Source of the DNA: Desulfobacteria bacterium
GTDB taxonomy: Bacteria > Desulfobacterota > Desulfobacteria > Desulfobacterales > C00003060
Assembly: GCA_030145395.1 (NCBI GenBank)
Contig: JAQYVR010000023.1
Location: 1 to 39,799 of the forward strand
Direction of reading: 5' to 3'
Length of the DNA stretch: 39,799 nucleotides
Shown here: positions 574 to 11,681 of the stretch, piece after piece
How the letters are laid out: each line of letters begins with the position of its first letter
How positions within the stretch are numbered: the first letter of the stretch is position 1
Notes under the pieces: model-generated
The model's input: the letters and a program-made list of their open reading frames with translations, nothing else
Databases searched by the model: none
Told to the model about the DNA's origin: nothing
Program-made: the position numbers and the translations under genes

Positions 574-811
574 TAGAACCTATCTCAAGAATAAGATTAG
601 GGTTCAGGGCCCCGCCTGACGGCGGGACTTCGGATCTATTTATAAGTTGAAGGTTCTCAGCAAACGCGGGGCGGTCCGCCGTCGCTTGGAAAGCTATGGC
701 GGGACAAGCGAAAAAGCGGGGCATACACGGTAGTACGTGAGTCCCGCCAAAGGCGGAAACCGTTTCGCAACACCGCCATGGGCACTTAGATTGTTTTTGA
801 GATAGGTTCTA
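574..811. mobile_element. MITE-like element A with 15-bp perfect terminal inverted repeats
   Basis: TAGAACCTATCTCAA at 574-588 is exactly inverted at 797-811, bounding 238 bp with no ORF of note. Both ends carry TA, compatible with the TA target duplication of IS630/Tc1-type elements (inference). The interior shares a GGGTTCAGGGC...CCTGACGGCGGGA block and a GCAAC.CCGCCATGG block with element B at 7413-7518. The right terminal repeat contains the stop codon of the adjacent ABC transporter gene (809-811). No transposase is present, so mobilisation would need one in trans. Confidence 0.65.
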
Positions 812-2773
812 TGACACGCCCTGCCATTGGTACAACTGATAGTACAGACCCTGTTTGGCTATGAGTTCATCGTGGGTGCCAGATTCTCTGATGCGCCCCC
901 TGTGGAGGACAATGATGCGGTCGGCGTAGCGTATAGTGGAGAGTCGGTGGGCAACGACAATGGCTGTGCGGTTCCGCATTAGTCGTACAGTTGCTTCCTG
1001 GATCAAACGTTCCGTCTGCGTATCCACACTTGAGGTCGCTTCGTCAAGGATCAGAATCTCAGGATCGCGGGCAAGGGCCCGGGCAAAGGCGAGTAACTGA
1101 CGCTCACCGCCTGACAGAGTCCGGCCCCCTTCCGTGAGCACCGTGTCGAGCCCATCCGGAAGCCTCTGGATCAAACGTTGTATGTTAGACGCTGCAATAA
1201 TCTCCTGCAACCTGTCAGGGGTGAGGATGGGGTTTCCTTCTGTAATGTTACGCCGTATGGTATCTGCGAACAGGAAAACGTCCTGGGTAATCAGGGCTGT
1301 ACGGGCGCGCACCATGGATTTCGACAGATGGCGCACATCGACCCCGCCGAGCGTTATCCGTCCTTTGATAGGGTCATAGAATCGTTCCAGGAGGTGAATC
1401 AGACTCGACTTACCTGCCCCGGTTGGTCCCACAATAGCCAAAGTCTCACCCTGCTGAACCGCAAATGAGACATCTTTCAACACCCACTCACCACCAATAT
1501 AAGAGAACCATACATTGTCAAAAGAAACAGCGGTCTCTTTTTTAGATATCTTCGCCTGGACCTTGGGTTCAGGAATCCGTTCCTGCGTATCAAAAAGGAG
1601 AAAGATCCGCTCAGATGAGGCCATAGCCGACTGCATGATGTTGTACTTTTCCGCAATATCCCGTATAGGCCGAAAAAACATTCTCATGTAGGAGATGAAC
1701 GCCACCAGAGTTCCAAGGCTAATGATTTCTGCCAGCACACGTCCACCCCCATACCATATAACCAGCGCTGTGGTCACCGAGCTCAAAACCTCGATAGCCG
1801 GCATAAACACCGCAAATATGTTTATCTGACGCATTCCGGCCTGGTAGTTTTCGTGGTTGAGCCGGCGAAAGCGTTCGTAGCTTCTCTTCTCCTGCAAAAA
1901 TAGCTGGACGATACGAATACCATCAATGGTCTCTTGCAGCCTTGTATTAATCTCAGCGAGCTTCACCCTGAGTTCCCGAAAGACATCTCGTGTCAGGCGA
2001 CTGAAATAAGATGTGGCCACAAAGATAACTGGAAGAATTAAGAAACAGATCAAGGCAAGTTGCCAGTTCATGACCAGGAGCACCACGGTGATGCCAAGGA
2101 CGAGAAAGACATCCTTGAAAAGGACTGTTATGATAGAGGTAAAAAATTCATGCATGTTCTGAATATCACTAGTCATGCGGGTCACCAGGCGTCCTACCGG
2201 ATTCCTCGTAAAGAATGCCACGGAAAGCCCCTGTATATGTCTGAAAAGCGTCAGCCTCAAATCGTGCATAATCGATTGTCCCGCGTATTCCATTATGATC
2301 ACATGGCCAAAGCTGAAAAGAAAATGGAAGAGGATTACACCAACAAAGATCAGCGCAACACGGGCCACCCCCGCATAATCTTTCCTCCGGAGATCCACAC
2401 GGTCTCCCTCTTCCAGTTTAGAAAGATCCTCGTACCGAATCCTTGCCTCGGGCCATTCTACCTTGAAGAACGAGGGATATCGATTGACCACCTTTTCAAT
2501 CTCTGGCCTACGAAGGTCAGCAACATAGAACCGCTTTTGTTGAGACTCTGCTCCATCCTCATCCGTGATGTCCTTCACGATGTAGCTGTCTATGGCCACC
2601 TTTGTCAGATAGGGGAGCGCCAAGTCCAGAACCGTAATGGCTATTACAAGCCCTATAGAGAGAAAGAACAACAGACCATATGGACGGACATAAGGAAAAA
2701 GCCTTCTGAGCAGTCTCAGATTATAAGGCTTGCCGAGTTGATCCTCTTCAAAATATCCGTAGTCGCGTCGCAT
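809..2773 (-). CDS. heterodimeric ABC exporter half-transporter, catalytic-site subunit (BmrD/TM288-like)
   Basis: This 654-residue fused permease-ATPase has six predicted membrane helices in the first ~390 residues and a C-terminal nucleotide-binding domain. The domain shows Walker A GPTGAGKSS, signature LSGGERQ, Walker B ILILDEATSSVD with the catalytic Glu intact, and switch His in IVVAHRLS. About 75 charged residues are inserted between TM1 and TM2 (roughly 63-135), as in the BmrD/LmrD/EfrD type. An in-frame TAA lies just upstream, so the ATG at 2773 is the earliest start, although no good Shine-Dalgarno is visible. It lies 53 bp after the partner gene. Its TAG stop falls in the terminal repeat of element A, so the native C-terminus may have been replaced. 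Substrate (drug, lipid or peptide) is unknown. Confidence 0.9.
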   Translation of the reverse strand: MRRDYGYFEEDQLGKPYNLRLLRRLFPYVRPYGLLFFLSIGLVIAITVLDLALPYLTKVAIDSYIVKDITDEDGAESQQKRFYVADLRRPEIEKVVNRYPSFFKVEWPEARIRYEDLSKLEEGDRVDLRRKDYAGVARVALIFVGVILFHFLFSFGHVIIMEYAGQSIMHDLRLTLFRHIQGLSVAFFTRNPVGRLVTRMTSDIQNMHEFFTSIITVLFKDVFLVLGITVVLLVMNWQLALICFLILPVIFVATSYFSRLTRDVFRELRVKLAEINTRLQETIDGIRIVQLFLQEKRSYERFRRLNHENYQAGMRQINIFAVFMPAIEVLSSVTTALVIWYGGGRVLAEIISLGTLVAFISYMRMFFRPIRDIAEKYNIMQSAMASSERIFLLFDTQERIPEPKVQAKISKKETAVSFDNVWFSYIGGEWVLKDVSFAVQQGETLAIVGPTGAGKSSLIHLLERFYDPIKGRITLGGVDVRHLSKSMVRARTALITQDVFLFADTIRRNITEGNPILTPDRLQEIIAASNIQRLIQRLPDGLDTVLTEGGRTLSGGERQLLAFARALARDPEILILDEATSSVDTQTERLIQEATVRLMRNRTAIVVAHRLSTIRYADRIIVLHRGRIRESGTHDELIAKQGLYYQLYQWQGVS

Positions 2774-2826
2774 GAGGCTAGTTATTTGTTATCGGTTTTT
2801 GACCGTCTCTCGGGTCTTCCACGTCA

Positions 2827-4575
2827 TCAACCCGCCTGATTATATTCTTCCTCGATCTCCTGCCAGTGATAAAGTCTGCTGTAGTACCCATTGAGGTCTA
2901 TAAGTTCATCGTGGGTGCCGGACTCGGTTATGTGTCCGCTCTCCAGGACGATTATCAGATCAGCATGTCGCACATGACTGAGCCTGTGAGATACGATCAC
3001 CGATGTACGGTCAAGCGTGTGGTCGCGGATACTGCCCAGGATGGCAGCGGCGGTCCCTGTATCCACCTGACTCATGGGATCATCCAATATGAGAATAGGT
3101 GTTGAGATGAGAAGCGCCCTTGCCAGCGCAAGACGCTGCTTTTGGCCGCCAGAGAGCGTTATCCCCCTTTCCCCGATTACTGTGTCAAATTGGTGGGGAA
3201 ACCGCATGATGGTCTCATATAAGTGGGCGGCGCGGGCGGCCTGTGCGATCTCTTCATCAGAGGCGTCTTCTTTACTGAAGTAGAGGTTATCCCGAATCGT
3301 CCCGGAAAACAGGAATGCATCCTGAGGCACCACCGCCATATGGGCTCGCAGGGTTTCAAGGGATATCTGGCTAACATCTATCCCGTCAATCAGAAGGCTT
3401 CCCTCTGTCGTATCAAAGACTCTGGAAATCATATGACACAGCGTGGTCTTGCCGCTTCCTGTCGGTCCAACCACACCCAGGGTTTGACCTGCTGCCACTG
3501 AAAGTGAGATCTTTGAAAGGGCGGATGGCTGATCCGGCCCATAGGCAAAACCGACTTGATCAAATACGATGTCCCCTCTGAGGGTCTTCACAGGGTTTGG
3601 CCTCTTGGGGCTGACAATCTCAGGCGTAATCTGCAGGATAACATTGATCCTATCGAGAGACGCCCCCCCTCGCTGGATCAGGTTGATCACCCACCCCATA
3701 GCCATCATAGGCCAGGTAAGAAGACCGATATAGGCGATGAAGGCCACGAAATCCCCGGGAGTAATGGTAAGACCAATTGTCTGTCGTCCACCAAGATAGA
3801 GGACTATGGCCAAGCTAATGTTCGAGAAGAACATCATGCCTGGGAAAAAGAAGCCGGTAACCCGCACGAGCCGAAGATTCTTGCCCAGATAATCTTCTGA
3901 GCTTTTCGAAAGCGTTTGGGCTTCCGCCTCCTCCCTATTGTAAGCCTTGACCACCCGGATCCCGGCAAAACGCTCCCGAACCACTTCGGTCAATTGGGCA
4001 AAAGACGCCTGAACCTCTTTGTATAGGTGGTGCATGCGGCCGCTCAAGACACGGGCCAATACGGCAATGATCGGCATGGGCAGCAGGGCAAATAGAGTGA
4101 GGGTCACATTAATGTAAAGCATGAAACCGATGGCAGCCAGCCCAAGCACGATTGCATCGGTCAGGGCCACCATCCCCATACCAACGGCCATCCGCACATG
4201 CAGGACATCATTGGTGGCATGGGCCATTAGTTCCCCGGTTTTAGTTTTGTCAAAATAGGCTGCTGAAAGGGTCTGGATGTGGGAAAAGAGCCGGTTTCGC
4301 AACCCCTCCTCTACCCGCCTGGATGTTCCTATGAGACATCTCCGCCAGATAAAGCGAAATATGCCGATTAGCAAGGCCACACCCACGATATAGAAGGCAT
4401 AATGAAGGAGCCTTGTTGGTGTGGTGTAAGAGATTGCCAGGTCATCCACCGCCCATTTGATGATACGAGGGATAAAGAGTTGAAGCATGTCAACTATGAG
4501 TAGGGAAAACAGGCCGATTGCGATAACAAACCTCTTTTCCACAAAGTACGGCTTAATAAGGCGGTATGATTTCAT
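2827..4575 (-). CDS. heterodimeric ABC exporter half-transporter, degenerate-site subunit (BmrC/TM287-like)
   Basis: This 582-residue half-transporter has an N-terminal six-helix permease and a C-terminal ATPase. Walker A is GPTGSGKTT, the signature is LSGGQKQRLALARAL and the switch region is VIVSHRLS. The Walker B segment reads ILILDDPMSQVD, so the catalytic Glu is Asp. That is the hallmark of the degenerate half in asymmetric exporters (BmrC/BmrD, TM287/TM288). With the intact site in the next gene, the pair would form one heterodimeric inner-membrane exporter. It is the promoter-proximal gene of a two-gene unit and diverges from the RNase gene. The ATG at 4575 has only a weak ribosome-binding site. 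Confidence 0.9.
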   Translation of the reverse strand: MKSYRLIKPYFVEKRFVIAIGLFSLLIVDMLQLFIPRIIKWAVDDLAISYTTPTRLLHYAFYIVGVALLIGIFRFIWRRCLIGTSRRVEEGLRNRLFSHIQTLSAAYFDKTKTGELMAHATNDVLHVRMAVGMGMVALTDAIVLGLAAIGFMLYINVTLTLFALLPMPIIAVLARVLSGRMHHLYKEVQASFAQLTEVVRERFAGIRVVKAYNREEAEAQTLSKSSEDYLGKNLRLVRVTGFFFPGMMFFSNISLAIVLYLGGRQTIGLTITPGDFVAFIAYIGLLTWPMMAMGWVINLIQRGGASLDRINVILQITPEIVSPKRPNPVKTLRGDIVFDQVGFAYGPDQPSALSKISLSVAAGQTLGVVGPTGSGKTTLCHMISRVFDTTEGSLLIDGIDVSQISLETLRAHMAVVPQDAFLFSGTIRDNLYFSKEDASDEEIAQAARAAHLYETIMRFPHQFDTVIGERGITLSGGQKQRLALARALLISTPILILDDPMSQVDTGTAAAILGSIRDHTLDRTSVIVSHRLSHVRHADLIIVLESGHITESGTHDELIDLNGYYSRLYHWQEIEEEYNQAG

Positions 4576-6793: not shown

Positions 6794-7009
6794 CTAATTT
6801 TCCTTCGGTTCAAACTCCATGGTTTCATCATTAAGGAGTCCGAGGTACGCATCATCCTTGCCAAACAAAAACCACAACTGCCCTACACTGAGGGCTGTCT
6901 CCCATGCCACATCATCCTCCATTTCAAGGAAAACGTCTTCCGGTTGAACATTCGCACCTTTTATTCCAACTTCCTTGAAGAAGTTCAAGAATTTCTCTTT
7001 GTCAGACAT
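6794..7009 (-). CDS. small acidic protein of unknown function (71 aa)
   Basis: The ATG at 7009 is preceded by a strong AGGAAGGAGG ribosome-binding site about 5 bp away, so the reading starts MSDKEKFLNFFKEVG rather than at the ATG 18 bp upstream. The product is acidic (many Glu and Asp) and compact, with an aromatic stretch around residues 45-50 (QLWFLFG). It has no signal peptide or membrane segment. It reads convergently with the RNase gene, with about 33 bp between stops. I do not recognise a family. The good ribosome-binding site and ordinary codon use argue that it is real. Confidence 0.6.
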   Translation of the reverse strand: MSDKEKFLNFFKEVGIKGANVQPEDVFLEMEDDVAWETALSVGQLWFLFGKDDAYLGLLNDETMEFEPKEN

Positions 7010-7171
7010 TGTGCCTCCTTCCTGCATATTGGCCTATATCGGTTTTAAAAAATAGGTTCTGTTTACGGGAATCTTTACAGTTGGTCCACATCGTAACATG
7101 TTTTTGACAACCGCTCTAAACCCTAACGTTGAATATATGATTGATCGCCTTTTTTCAACCCTCATGTGGTG

Positions 7172-7412: not shown

Positions 7413-7518
7413 CAAGCCATCTCAAAAATGCGTCTAAGGCCCCATGGCGGCGTTGCAGGTCGGCTTCCCGCCGTCAGGAGGAGCCCTGAACCCTGATCCA
7501 CTTTTTTTAGATGGCTTG
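7413..7518. mobile_element. MITE-like element B, shorter relative of element A
   Basis: CAAGCCATCT at 7413-7422 is exactly inverted at 7509-7518, bounding 106 bp. Read on the minus strand it aligns with both ends of element A: GGGTTCAGGGC and CCTGACGGCGGGA near one end, and GCAAC.CCGCCATGG...TTTTTGAGAT near the other. It lacks the middle ~130 bp of A, so it is either an internal deletion or the ancestral short form. No coding capacity. Confidence 0.6.
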
Positions 7519-7592
7519 AAGTGTCGTGTCGCGGAAATAACTTTCATTAGTTTTCGGCCGCTAAACGCCTTTACCGAGCGACATTGAGCATT
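7519..7592 (-). repeat. flanking part of the composite repeat (twin of 501-573)
   Basis: Read on the minus strand, 7592-7574 is identical over 19 bases to 501-519, and the spacing to the terminal repeat (55 bp) matches that at the left copy (54 bp). The two composite copies lie in opposite orientation about 7 kb apart. Confidence 0.6.
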
Positions 7593-7631
7593 GTCGGCAT
7601 TAATAGTTTACGTTTAATTAGGGTCCAAAGA

Positions 7632-8516
7632 TTATTGGGCCAAAGTATCAAAATGCGGAACAAAACCGTGTGATTCATATATCCCCTGAGCCTGCGGTGA
7701 CTTTATGAACCCAAGGAACTTATCAGCGTTCTCAGGGTTGGCAGCGGCCTTTAGCCGGCAAACATAATAGTCTATCCTATCCCTCTGATCGAAGTCCTCT
7801 CCGGGGTCAACCATATCTACTGAGAGGTTGCTCTGCTGTGCATGTATCACTTCTGTCGCCCAGACTGGCCCAACGTCAACTGTCCCCTTCATAATCCTTA
7901 GCGGTGTCTCCCGGTGGTGGACTACCGTCAGTATAGTCGTCCCTTCGGCCCGTTTTCCCTCCATAACGCGATGAACAAGGCTCTCACCACCTGCCTGCCG
8001 ATACATATCGATAATATAGTCAGCAATGTCCTCATATTCGGGGTTCGGCTGTGAAATACGTACCTCTTCTCGTCCTAGATCGGCTACGGACGCAATCTCT
8101 GCAGGATTGCCCTGCGGCACCATCAAGACAATACGGTTGTGAAGGTAGAGAAAGTAGTCACCCTTCGTAATGATGCCGCCCTCTTCGAGCCGCGCCATAG
8201 CCTTCTCCGTGACCGACGCGTAGACATCAGGAACCACGTCTATGAGCCTGCCCCTATAAAGAGCGCCACCCGCCAGGATCTGTTTCAGTTCCAATCCAGG
8301 CGGAAGTGTTTCGTAGAAGATCCTATTGACATCGGGATGTTCCTCTTGAAAGGTACCAACGAGTTCGTCCATGACCATGAATTGATTGCCCGCGACAAAT
8401 AGAACCAGGTCCGCCGAATCCACAAAATCAAGGTTATGAAGGTCATCTCCTCTGTCTGAAGGTATCACCGGATAATCAGTCTTTTTCTTTTCTCCAGCCA
8501 TCTCCTTTTCCTCCAT
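7632..8516 (-). CDS. ModA-like type 2 periplasmic-binding-fold protein without a signal peptide
   Basis: The ~294-residue protein has the pattern of oxyanion-type solute-binding proteins. It has an early beta-strand LVLFVAGNQFM, a central hinge segment (FLYLHNRIVLMVPQGNP, about residues 120-140), a DVGPVWATEVIHA segment and the terminal KFLGFIKSPQAQGIYESHGF typical of ModA/WtpA-like proteins. There is no hydrophobic leader or lipobox: the N-terminus is highly charged, so it is predicted cytoplasmic. Start choice is uncertain. The ATG at 8516 overlaps the upstream stop as TGATG, a GTG lies at 8519, and an ATG at 8501 has GGAGG 8 bp upstream. The overlap with the GTPase gene implies translational coupling. 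The ligand could be molybdate, tungstate or another anion. Confidence 0.75.
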   Translation of the reverse strand: MEEKEMAGEKKKTDYPVIPSDRGDDLHNLDFVDSADLVLFVAGNQFMVMDELVGTFQEEHPDVNRIFYETLPPGLELKQILAGGALYRGRLIDVVPDVYASVTEKAMARLEEGGIITKGDYFLYLHNRIVLMVPQGNPAEIASVADLGREEVRISQPNPEYEDIADYIIDMYRQAGGESLVHRVMEGKRAEGTTILTVVHHRETPLRIMKGTVDVGPVWATEVIHAQQSNLSVDMVDPGEDFDQRDRIDYYVCRLKAAANPENADKFLGFIKSPQAQGIYESHGFVPHFDTLAQ

Positions 8517-9502
8517 CACATGTGCAGCTCCACCACGTCTCCATCTTGCAGCACGTGGTCTCTCTGGATCATCTGGCCATCATAAACGCCATCGCCCCAT
8601 ACCTTGGCGCATTTGAATTTATCTACAAATTCCTTGTGGACCTTACCAGCAAGATCTTCAACTGTAGCCCCTTTTTTCAGAACAAACGGCGCGTTGTGCT
8701 CCGGAGTCTTACCTCTGGCCTTGGTGTAAACCCGTATGATCTCAAGTCGCTCAAAGAGTGTCTGTTTGAGCAACTCAAAGTTGCGGCCGGTCTTTGCAGA
8801 CACCGCAACCACTGGCCAGTCGTCCTTCAACAGTGCTTTGAATATCTGAAGATTCTCCTCAGCTGAGGCATCGTCGTTCTTATTAGCTAACACTATCGCC
8901 GGCCTGAAAGTCCAGCCCTGTCTTCCTTCATACAGATAAGCCAGGCGCAACGGCGCAATTCGCTTCTCTCCGAGAAGAGCGAGTGTCTCGTCCAGATGTT
9001 GAACAGGGTCTGTGGTCACATCCACTACCAGCATCATCATGTCCGCCCTGCCAATAATGTCCGGAAGCCAAGGCTCCATATACTCTCTCGTCATTGGCGG
9101 AGTGTCAATCAGCTGAACCTGGATGTTTTCAAAGGGCATCATGCCGGGAGTAGGAATCCGGGTGGTGTGAGGAAAATCCGCCACTTCAGGAGTGGCATTA
9201 GTGAGTGCAGCCACCAATGCGGATTTGCCCACGTTGGGAGGACCGACAAGTACGACTTGTCCCGCACCTTCGGGGTCAACCCTGTGACCCATATCTCGTC
9301 TGCTGGTTGCCTTTTTTGCCTGCTGCTGGGACTTGAGCTTGGAGAGGCGACGTCTGAAATCGGCCCTTAGTTTATCCGTGCCTTTGTGCTTGGGTATAAT
9401 GGCAAGCATCTCTTCCAAGGCCTCGATTCTCTCCGCCGGGGCCTTGGCCTGGCGATACCGCTTTTCAACCTCAAAATACTCTGGTGGCAGATTAGCAGGC
9501 AT
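8516..9502 (-). CDS. OBG/DRG-type GTPase with C-terminal TGS domain
   Basis: This 328-residue protein has an N-terminal helical region (1-75), a GTPase domain and a TGS domain in the last ~65 residues. The GTPase domain shows G1 GPPNVGKS, an HTTRIPTPGMM switch region, G3 LIDTPP, G4 NKND and G5 SAKTG. The TGS domain is marked by PFVLKKGATVEDLAGKVHKEF and ends DGDVVELHM. The start is the ATG giving MPANLPPEYFEVEKRY, with GAGG 5 bp upstream, instead of an ATG 27 bp earlier. TGS GTPases generally act near ribosomes or RNA. Its stop overlaps the start of the ModA-like gene, so the two products are probably made together. Confidence 0.85.
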   Translation of the reverse strand: MPANLPPEYFEVEKRYRQAKAPAERIEALEEMLAIIPKHKGTDKLRADFRRRLSKLKSQQQAKKATSRRDMGHRVDPEGAGQVVLVGPPNVGKSALVAALTNATPEVADFPHTTRIPTPGMMPFENIQVQLIDTPPMTREYMEPWLPDIIGRADMMMLVVDVTTDPVQHLDETLALLGEKRIAPLRLAYLYEGRQGWTFRPAIVLANKNDDASAEENLQIFKALLKDDWPVVAVSAKTGRNFELLKQTLFERLEIIRVYTKARGKTPEHNAPFVLKKGATVEDLAGKVHKEFVDKFKCAKVWGDGVYDGQMIQRDHVLQDGDVVELHM

Positions 9503-10379: not shown

Positions 10380-10757
10380 TTAAGCCTCCACCTCACCCGT
10401 TGTGTACTTCTCGATGAAATACTCCAGCTGAGATATATGTCTCCGCGTTAGATCACCGAATTCCACACCGCATCGCCTCTTCCTCACCGAAGGAAGAGAG
10501 GTTTTTAGGGTTTCAAAATCCGAAATGGTTTGACACGGCACCCCGAACAAACGAAAATCACCATTGGTGAAAATGTCCAATGTTGTTGATTTTGTTGATG
10601 GATCCTCCCCGCAAAAGTAATCACAGGTCAGACCATGAACACTAATATCCACTATTGTGCCGAGTTTTTTATCATAGGGCCTAAGTATTACATATGCACC
10701 CTTTACCTTGAACCGAGTGTGCTTCCTTCGCTCAACTTGCCCGTTCGTCTTTTTCAT
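10380..10757 (-). CDS. PilZ-domain protein, probable c-di-GMP receptor (1)
   Basis: This 125-residue single-domain PilZ protein carries the two c-di-GMP-binding motifs: ERRKHTRF near residue 10 (the RxxxR loop) and DISVHGLT near residue 38 (the D/NxSxxG motif). The C-terminal part CGVEFGDLTRRHISQLEYFI is also typical. No signal or membrane segment is present, so it is cytoplasmic. The ATG is preceded by GAGGGG at good spacing. It lies downstream of a second PilZ gene and a receiver gene. Together with the neighbouring Wza/Wzc genes this suggests second-messenger control of polysaccharide export (inference). Confidence 0.85.
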   Translation of the reverse strand: MKKTNGQVERRKHTRFKVKGAYVILRPYDKKLGTIVDISVHGLTCDYFCGEDPSTKSTTLDIFTNGDFRLFGVPCQTISDFETLKTSLPSVRKRRCGVEFGDLTRRHISQLEYFIEKYTTGEVEA

Positions 10758-10939
10758 GACACACCCCCCTCATAGAGTTTGAGGACAGGAACGCTCAGTG
10801 CGTACAGCAATGTATCAGATAACATGCAAGATAGCTGGGTTCTGCAAGGTAACACAAGAAAGAAAGGGGGCGGGGATCAAGGGCAACGCCGCAGATGGAC
10901 TTTCTACGAAGCCGTCAAACTTTGATTTGTCTTCTGCAG

Positions 10940-11308
10940 TTACGCCTCACCTGTGCTTTGCTTCTCGACGTAACGATCTAACTGAGACTTCTGAGACTTT
11001 GTAAGTTCCACGAATTGCGCACTGCATCGCCTTACCGGTATAACGCCCAGAAGAAACCCATTAGGTATGTGGTAGTCTGAAATGGTTCTTACTGTTAGCT
11101 TGATCAAGTTAAAATCAATATGATCCCATAAAATGTCTATTTCAAACAATCCGTTCGATGGCCCTTGGCCGTTCACATAACGAAATGCAAGGCCACTTTT
11201 GCTAATGTCTACTATTTGAACCCCTTTGGTAGAAGCAGGCCCGAACAATATGGCATCCGCTCGGCCCTCAATCTGGATCCGCTTATGTTGTCTTCTCTCA
11301 ACTGGCAT
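10940..11308 (-). CDS. PilZ-domain protein, probable c-di-GMP receptor (2)
   Basis: This 122-residue PilZ protein has ERRQHKRIQ near the start and DISKSGLAFRY around residue 35. The end CSAQFVELTKSQKSQLDRYV resembles that of its neighbour at 10380. The start MPVERR (11308) is preferred because a G-rich ribosome-binding site lies upstream. It overlaps the end of the receiver gene by 11 bp. An ATG at 11323 would lengthen the overlap and lacks a ribosome-binding site. The two PilZ proteins differ substantially, so they may bind different partners. Predicted cytoplasmic. Confidence 0.83.
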   Translation of the reverse strand: MPVERRQHKRIQIEGRADAILFGPASTKGVQIVDISKSGLAFRYVNGQGPSNGLFEIDILWDHIDFNLIKLTVRTISDYHIPNGFLLGVIPVRRCSAQFVELTKSQKSQLDRYVEKQSTGEA

Positions 11309-11681
11309 TGTCCTGTCCCCCATGTAAGCGTTGTTTCCCTATAACAACTTCCTTGATAGCATTCACGAGGCTTTGGATTTTAAAAGGTTTGGCAAAAACA
11401 TAATCAAATTCATCGTACTCAAGATCCCGGAGCATGCCTGAAATACCTATAATTGGCGTGTCGGATCTTTTACAGTTGCGTATGTGTCGAGCGACATTGA
11501 AGCCGTCCATGTCAGGCATATTGATGTCTGTTATCACTACATCAAATAAGTCCTTCTCAAACAGGCGAAGGCCTTCATAACCTCCTGACGCGGTCTCCAC
11601 GCGGCAGTCAAACCGTGCCAAGCCGATTTGAAGCATCTCCAAGATGGACTTTTCGTCGTCAATCACCAGTACTTTATTCAT
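11298..11681 (-). CDS. single-domain response regulator (CheY-like receiver)
   Basis: This 127-residue stand-alone receiver shows all core residues: the acidic pair in VLVIDDEKS, the phospho-acceptor Asp in VVITDINMPDMDG (about residue 53), Ser in IIGISG and Lys in FAKPF. There is no output domain, so it must act by protein contacts or as a phosphorelay step. No histidine kinase is encoded in the window. It overlaps the first PilZ gene, pointing to coupled translation and a shared role with c-di-GMP signalling. Confidence 0.85.
   Translation of the reverse strand: MNKVLVIDDEKSILEMLQIGLARFDCRVETASGGYEGLRLFEKDLFDVVITDINMPDMDGFNVARHIRNCKRSDTPIIGISGMLRDLEYDEFDYVFAKPFKIQSLVNAIKEVVIGKQRLHGGQDNAS

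Follow-up and report, generated by a model that had tools for sequence, protein, structure and literature searches.

The question raised by this locus is whether two genes lying one after the other on the same strand, for a TGS GTPase and for a ModA-like solute-binding protein, form a functional pair, and, if not, to which cellular context the binding protein belongs. The original prediction had described them as translationally coupled, with the binding protein as a ligand-sensing partner of the GTPase. The window, the whole stretch of 39,799 nucleotides analysed here, is one contig (C270) from a genome assembly of 2.87 Mb that is 89% complete.

The two genes, their junction and the conservation of the pair

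Both predicted genes were found to be real and to lie on the minus strand. The features used below are as follows.

8516..9502, minus strand: DRG-like GTPase gene (MMR_HSR1 and TGS domains, 328 aa), identified by Pfam, with a [M/V]PANLPPEYFE start conserved in relatives and the stop codon TGA at 8518-8516
7632..8501, minus strand: gene of a leaderless protein with the type II periplasmic-binding-protein (PBP) fold (289 aa, starting MAGEKKK...), identified by Pfam PF13531, a conserved start with a Shine-Dalgarno sequence, and its fold
8510..8514, minus strand: Shine-Dalgarno sequence GGAGG of the binding-protein gene, spacer 8, overlapped by the ATG (8516-8514) that the original prediction took as the start
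6794..7027, minus strand: small ORF of 77 aa (...MSDKEKFLNFFKEVGI...), downstream of the pair and found close to the two genes in genus relatives too

The assignment of the first gene as a TGS GTPase was confirmed by PF01926 (64.2 bits, cut-off 21.9) and by the TGS family PF02824 (64.8 bits, cut-off 22.2). The MMR_HSR1 G domain is followed by a C-terminal TGS domain, and the best solved relative is the yeast Rbg1/DRG structure 4a9a (E 4.4e-30). It is a DRG-like GTPase of the usual bacterial kind, encoded next to the binding protein in some members of one genus. Upstream of it, two PilZ-domain genes and a response-regulator receiver gene lie in a row (10380-11681). For the small ORF, the relative at L091 gave no Pfam match at E <= 0.01, and we do not think that the 77-aa product belongs to a complex.

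The letters TGATG, read originally as an overlap of the GTPase stop with the binding-protein start, are present (8518-8514, minus strand), but they do not contain the start. The conserved start of the binding protein is the ATG at 8501, 15 nt downstream, and the relatives start at the matching position. Because this start has GGAGG 8 nt upstream, the ATG at 8516 falls in the ribosome-binding region, and the codons that the original prediction read as the first residues of the protein belong to that region. With the start at 8501 the genes are 14 nt apart and do not overlap. Among 11 relatives inspected, three (L098, L095 and L104) have the block GGAGGAAAA 5' of the binding-protein start, and several others have GGAG or AGGAG. 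Co-transcription of the two genes is possible in the window genome, the only genus genome with both genes in which the 14-nt junction was seen.

The pair is largely not conserved, an outcome that the original prediction had named as speaking against it. From 22 genomes of the genus (own genome included, many of them drafts), nine carry both genes, nine the binding protein alone, one the GTPase alone and three neither; half of the binding-protein carriers (9/18) thus have no GTPase. When both are present, they are adjacent on one strand in eight of the nine genomes, own included, and 708 kb apart in the ninth (G297). The seven adjacent relatives show a gap of 316-492 nt, measured from match ends, vs 14 nt in the window. 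At L091 this gap holds a gene of the family PF05635 (23S_rRNA_IVP; L091:6234-6605, 50.3 bits), at L095 a remnant that scores below the cut-off of that family (7435-7662, minus strand; 22.3 of 33.8 bits), and at L094 letters that resemble a PF05635 gene. In G341, from the same order, the two genes are on different contigs.

Two further observations concern this neighbourhood. At L090 and L096, a PF05635-type reading frame continues in frame into the binding protein. Additionally, a 314-328 aa protein (M[I/V]TIGFS...) is encoded near the pair in the genus (L092:7007-7993, L095, L098 and L099:8927-9910); a Pfam search of the L092 copy returned no match, and in G300 its gene directly follows the GTPase gene, with a 4-nt overlap with the GTPase stop.

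In a sample of 297 genomes from the phylum of the window, the GTPase was present in 8 of 18 carriers of the leaderless binding protein vs 84 of the 297 genomes overall (p 0.17). Only the own genome, out of these eight, has the genes adjacent; in the seven carriers outside the genus they are about 27 kb apart (G136), about 1 Mb apart (G038) or on different contigs (the other five). As a pair, the genes are neighbours in some genomes of a single genus. The reading of the binding protein as a ligand sensor that works with, and is translationally coupled to, a ribosome-type GTPase is consistent with the shared strand, the 14-nt distance and the adjacency in eight of nine genus genomes; however, the position of the start, the longer gaps with a PF05635 gene or piece, the carriers without GTPase and the non-adjacent genes outside the genus make it highly improbable, and we rejected the partnership. 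A stop/start overlap in one genome should not be taken for a functional pair.

Family, fold and N-terminus of the binding protein

The ModA-like fold was supported. The protein matches PF13531 (SBP_bac_11) with 129.7 bits (cut-off 25), and an AlphaFold2 model built from 20 orthologues is predicted, with a mean pLDDT of 88, to have a type II PBP fold. The top Foldseek matches of the model are ModA or putative ModA, and the fold comparison gave Z 20.1 for 4kd5, a putative clostridial ModA (rmsd 2.9, 225 aligned residues). SubI (Z 19.3), Sbp (18.4), AcfC (18.2) and PEB3 (17.7) score so close to this value that the fold does not choose a ligand. A PDB profile search returned ModA, PEB3, sulfate-binding, AcfC and iron-binding chains, none of which singles out a ligand, and the ModA model TIGR01256 reached 41.5 bits, below its cut-off of 62.5. 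In the 20 orthologues, 79 of the 289 columns are invariant, including A-G-N-Q-F, T-L-P-P, N-R, S-Q-P, H-H-R-E-T-P and G-P-x-W-x-T-E. An invariant Trp aligns with the ModA Tyr that we take to hold the ligand.

The charged, leaderless N-terminus from which a cytoplasmic location had been proposed was likewise upheld, in the window and in the best 80 of 353 named relatives, a selection biased to closeness with a leaderless query. Each frame was followed upstream as far as the in-frame stop or the contig edge, and no signal peptide preceded the conserved N-terminus; the check used the sequences and a crude hydropathy test covering the first part of each N-terminus. A few read-backs contained non-conserved hydrophobic patches (largest 12-residue mean 2.13, L183), and two relatives (L133 and L136) are disturbed at the N-terminus. 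The own genome has a second match (L002, 28% identity), with an N-terminus that looks leader-like by eye and 41.5 bits against the ModA model; as this is below the cut-off and the leader was judged by eye only, L002 does not settle molybdate uptake.

Clustering of the neighbours at 59 named loci (L139-L197; L154 is in the genus) revealed no gene family recurring across phyla beside the binding protein. The recurring neighbours are confined to related genomes, as in the shared flanks of 11 Desulfobacterales-type loci, and a conserved cross-phylum operon was rejected. The original prediction had named ABC permease neighbours and homologues with clear signal peptides as evidence against its reading. 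As judged by eye, no ABC importer permease lies directly beside the binding-protein gene; the two ABC genes of the window (809-4575, ABC_membrane and ABC_tran) are of the exporter type and lie 3 kb off, on the far side of an RNase II-type gene. By eye, no ModB or ModC was recognised next to the gene, whether in the clustered loci, in the window or in the other loci.

Co-occurrence with dissimilatory sulfite reductase

The binding-protein family was found almost only, in the sampled genomes, in bacteria and archaea that have the sulfite reductase of sulfate respiration. The gene dsrA was detected with TIGR02064 (matches of named carriers counted at E <= 1e-30), and binding-protein carriers in the phylum sample were counted at E <= 1e-50. 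The own genome has dsrA on another contig (C190). In the 297 genomes of the phylum sample, 20 have the binding protein, 18 of them leaderless and two exported (G196 and G053), and all 20 are within the 144 genomes with dsrA. Thus, 18 of 18 leaderless carriers have dsrA vs 144 of 297 genomes (Fisher 1.2e-6); since the genomes are not independent, this and the following p values overstate the association. Counted by family, by hand from listings, the figures are 10 of 10 carrier families vs 51 of 96 (p 0.0011). One further genome (G148) with dsrA and a binding-protein fragment (47% identity) was left out of the counts.

Two other samples gave the same picture. In the class of the archaeal carrier G374 (59 genomes), 11 of 11 carriers have dsrA vs 33 of 59 genomes (p 0.0013). 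In the phylum of G376 (Nitrospirae, 148 genomes), the carriers of the close clade, defined there as matches over 400 bits (G376, G433 and G372), have dsrA in three of three cases vs 64 of 148 (p 0.08 alone), and a genome with dsrA and a leaderless close-clade fragment (G538, 71% identity) was left out. Pooled, 32 of 32 carriers have dsrA vs 241 of 504 genomes, with relatedness ignored; five of the 32 (G000, G376, G372, G374 and G383) were known before sampling, and the dsrA of the last four had already been seen in the test of named carriers. The close clade is missing from all 263 genomes of the three samples that have no dsrA.

In the test of named carriers, 50 among the best 80 of 353, 45 match dsrA and 43 are over the cut-off. 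One genome (G365) has dsrA in two pieces, and another (G401), counted among the 45, has only a weaker, dsrB-like match. The five named carriers without a match are G358, G368, G370, G377 and G400, whose completeness was not part of the test.

The link does not extend to the GTPase, as given above. It does not extend either to cdhC (acetyl-CoA synthase of the Wood-Ljungdahl pathway), a control present in 10 of 18 carriers vs 187 of 297 genomes (p 0.62) and rejected as an alternative correlate. In the five genomes with dsrA and the binding protein on one contig (G038, G100, G269, G562 and G566), the two are more than 500 kb apart, so that in these genomes the gene lies neither in nor beside the dsr cluster. 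Most dsrA genomes of the phylum sample (126 of 144, one of them G148 with its fragment) have no leaderless protein, and the gene is therefore accessory rather than core.

In a tree of 103 rows, the leaderless close clade forms 81 rows on one side of a branch (support 100/99). These rows come from Archaeoglobi, Nitrospirota, Thermodesulfobacterium, Desulfofervidus, Desulfotomaculum and Desulfobacterales. The window protein shares 59-65% identity with the archaeal members, and the Thermodesulfobacterium rows, the Desulfotomaculum row and two Nitrospirota rows form one clade (97/87). Such closeness across domains suggests, at the level of sequence, lateral transfer.

Homologues with clear signal peptides do exist, but in a separate clade. 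The 148-genome sample contains 24 genomes with a match: the three close carriers, the G538 fragment and 20 distant homologues. Sixteen of the distant homologues are exported and four are leaderless, three with dsrA (G468, G491 and G520) and one outlier without it (L204 in G435). Ignoring relatedness, dsrA accompanies seven of eight leaderless proteins of this sample, close clade and G538 included, vs one of 16 exported proteins (G528; p 1.8e-4). As the proteins of G468, G491 and G520 group with the exported clade, leaders were lost or gained more than once, and a missing leader is not unique to the close clade.

The neighbours outside the close clade hint at sulfur chemistry. Cytochromes of the c type with a SoxA/TsdA domain lie beside exported L217, L222 and L050 and leaderless L206, but such cytochrome domains are widespread, all SoxA NCBIfam matches are below the cut-off (best 81.1 of 110 bits, L206), and in Pfam most of these cytochromes match other cytochrome c models better. 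A rhodanese lies beside L209, together with a 472-aa protein that has no Pfam or NCBIfam match.

Two gene orders were recorded at these loci. At L209, L210, L211, L213 and L215, the exported binding protein is followed by a protein of about 472-512 aa and a rhodanese-like protein of 114-119 aa, the latter called by Pfam for L209 and by look for the other four. At L206 (5270-6118, minus strand), the leaderless relative adjoins a SoxA-like di-haem cytochrome, and two genes there, as also near L049, resemble by eye cytochrome bd-type oxidase subunits.

Candidate roles and comparison with known systems

The stronger finding, over the GTPase pairing, is a dsr-associated cytoplasmic family of binding proteins with a putative ligand class only. 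Our best guess is a cytoplasmic sulfur-oxyanion binding protein in a subset of dissimilatory sulfite/sulfate reducers. What the analysis shows is the modelled fold, the missing leader, the lack of conserved neighbours, the single clade and the co-occurrence with dsrA; the pocket, the ligand and the role are inferred. In such a protein, the two lobes would close reversibly, within the cytoplasm, on a small oxyanion of sulfur, namely sulfite, thiosulfate, sulfate or APS. The pocket would be lined by the invariant or nearly invariant motifs AGNQF, TLPPG, HNR, SQP, HHRETP and GPVWATE, and the protein may serve as a buffer, carrier or sensor of a sulfur intermediate where sulfite is made and reduced.

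A rival reading is an enzyme. Among the type II PBP folds that lack a leader are enzymes of the cytoplasm, such as MqnA/MqnD of menaquinone synthesis and porphobilinogen deaminase, and a cytoplasmic protein without transporter whose polar HHRETP is invariant in all 20 alignment rows could carry out one reaction of a cofactor or sulfur pathway in dsr organisms, with this motif at the active site. However, the exported homologues keep like motifs (HHRQTP, HHRET or HHRQSP, and TLPPG), which is odd for a cytoplasmic cofactor enzyme. Moreover, VitK2_biosynth, the menaquinone-enzyme family of Pfam, was not among the four Pfam matches at E <= 1, although a relation at the level of the fold would be compatible with this result. 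We consider an enzyme unlikely. The link to dsrA could instead be ecological: a mobile gene whose function has nothing to do with sulfur might happen to be passed among the same organisms in anoxic communities, which are often hot or in deep sediment. The patchy distribution (two of seven dsrA-bearing f38 genomes have the binding protein) and the spread across domains at 59-65% identity speak for it; the lack of enrichment of cdhC, another anaerobe gene, and the absence of the close clade from the dsrA-free genomes speak against it and leave it unlikely.

The resemblance to ModA, the closest named family in both the model search and Foldseek, would suit a cytoplasmic molybdate or tungstate store or chaperone that feeds the Mo/W enzymes of these anaerobes. 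We regard this as less likely still, given the TIGR01256 score below the cut-off, the near tie of the fold with sulfate-binding SubI, the invariant Trp where ModA has what we take to be a ligand-holding Tyr, and the use of Mo and W, which extends beyond dsr organisms. We hold, tentatively and at less than even confidence, that the binding protein is a stand-alone cytoplasmic solute-binding fold of a laterally spread dsr family, a sulfur-oxyanion binder rather than a subunit or sensor of the GTPase. A wider proposal is more doubtful: the protein may represent a cytoplasmic accessory of dissimilatory sulfite reduction from the SBP superfamily, moved between archaea and bacteria along with the capacity to live by sulfate reduction, that keeps hold of a sulfur intermediate which is toxic or rich in energy (sulfite, thiosulfate or APS), and its exported sister clade might do the same outside the cell for SoxA-like cytochromes.

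To our knowledge, how sulfite is handled in the cell on its way from APS reductase to DsrAB is poorly understood. A leaderless family that tracks dsrA across two domains of life in the sampled genomes is a concrete, testable candidate for this step. The title of its Pfam family, 'Bacterial extracellular solute-binding protein', makes it easy to overlook. No description of it was found among the literature matches listed, a search with subscription journals outside its scope that does not prove absence from print. In the portions of text available from PMC3949148 and from PMC5840216, which surveys the sulfate transporters of sulfate reducers, no such binding protein is named.

Regarding known systems, the GTPase shares its G and TGS domains with the DRG/Rbg1 ribosome-interacting GTPases, as seen in the match to 4a9a, but it is bacterial. 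The binding protein shares with ModA the type II PBP fold (4kd5) and the family PF13531; it differs in the missing leader, in the lack of recognised ModBC neighbours, in the score of 41.5 of 62.5 bits and in its own conserved motifs. The same fold is found in the sulfate-binding SubI/Sbp and in AcfC/PEB3, which are exported, whereas the binding protein is leaderless and 13-17% identical to them. The exported clade of the family (L049/L050, L207 and L209-L223) shares with it 34-41% identity over the domain and the GNQF/GNYF, TLPPG and HHR motifs. Its members, however, have signal peptides, some adjoin c-type cytochromes, a MauG-like peroxidase or a rhodanese, and 15 of 16 carriers in the Nitrospirota-group sample have no dsrA.
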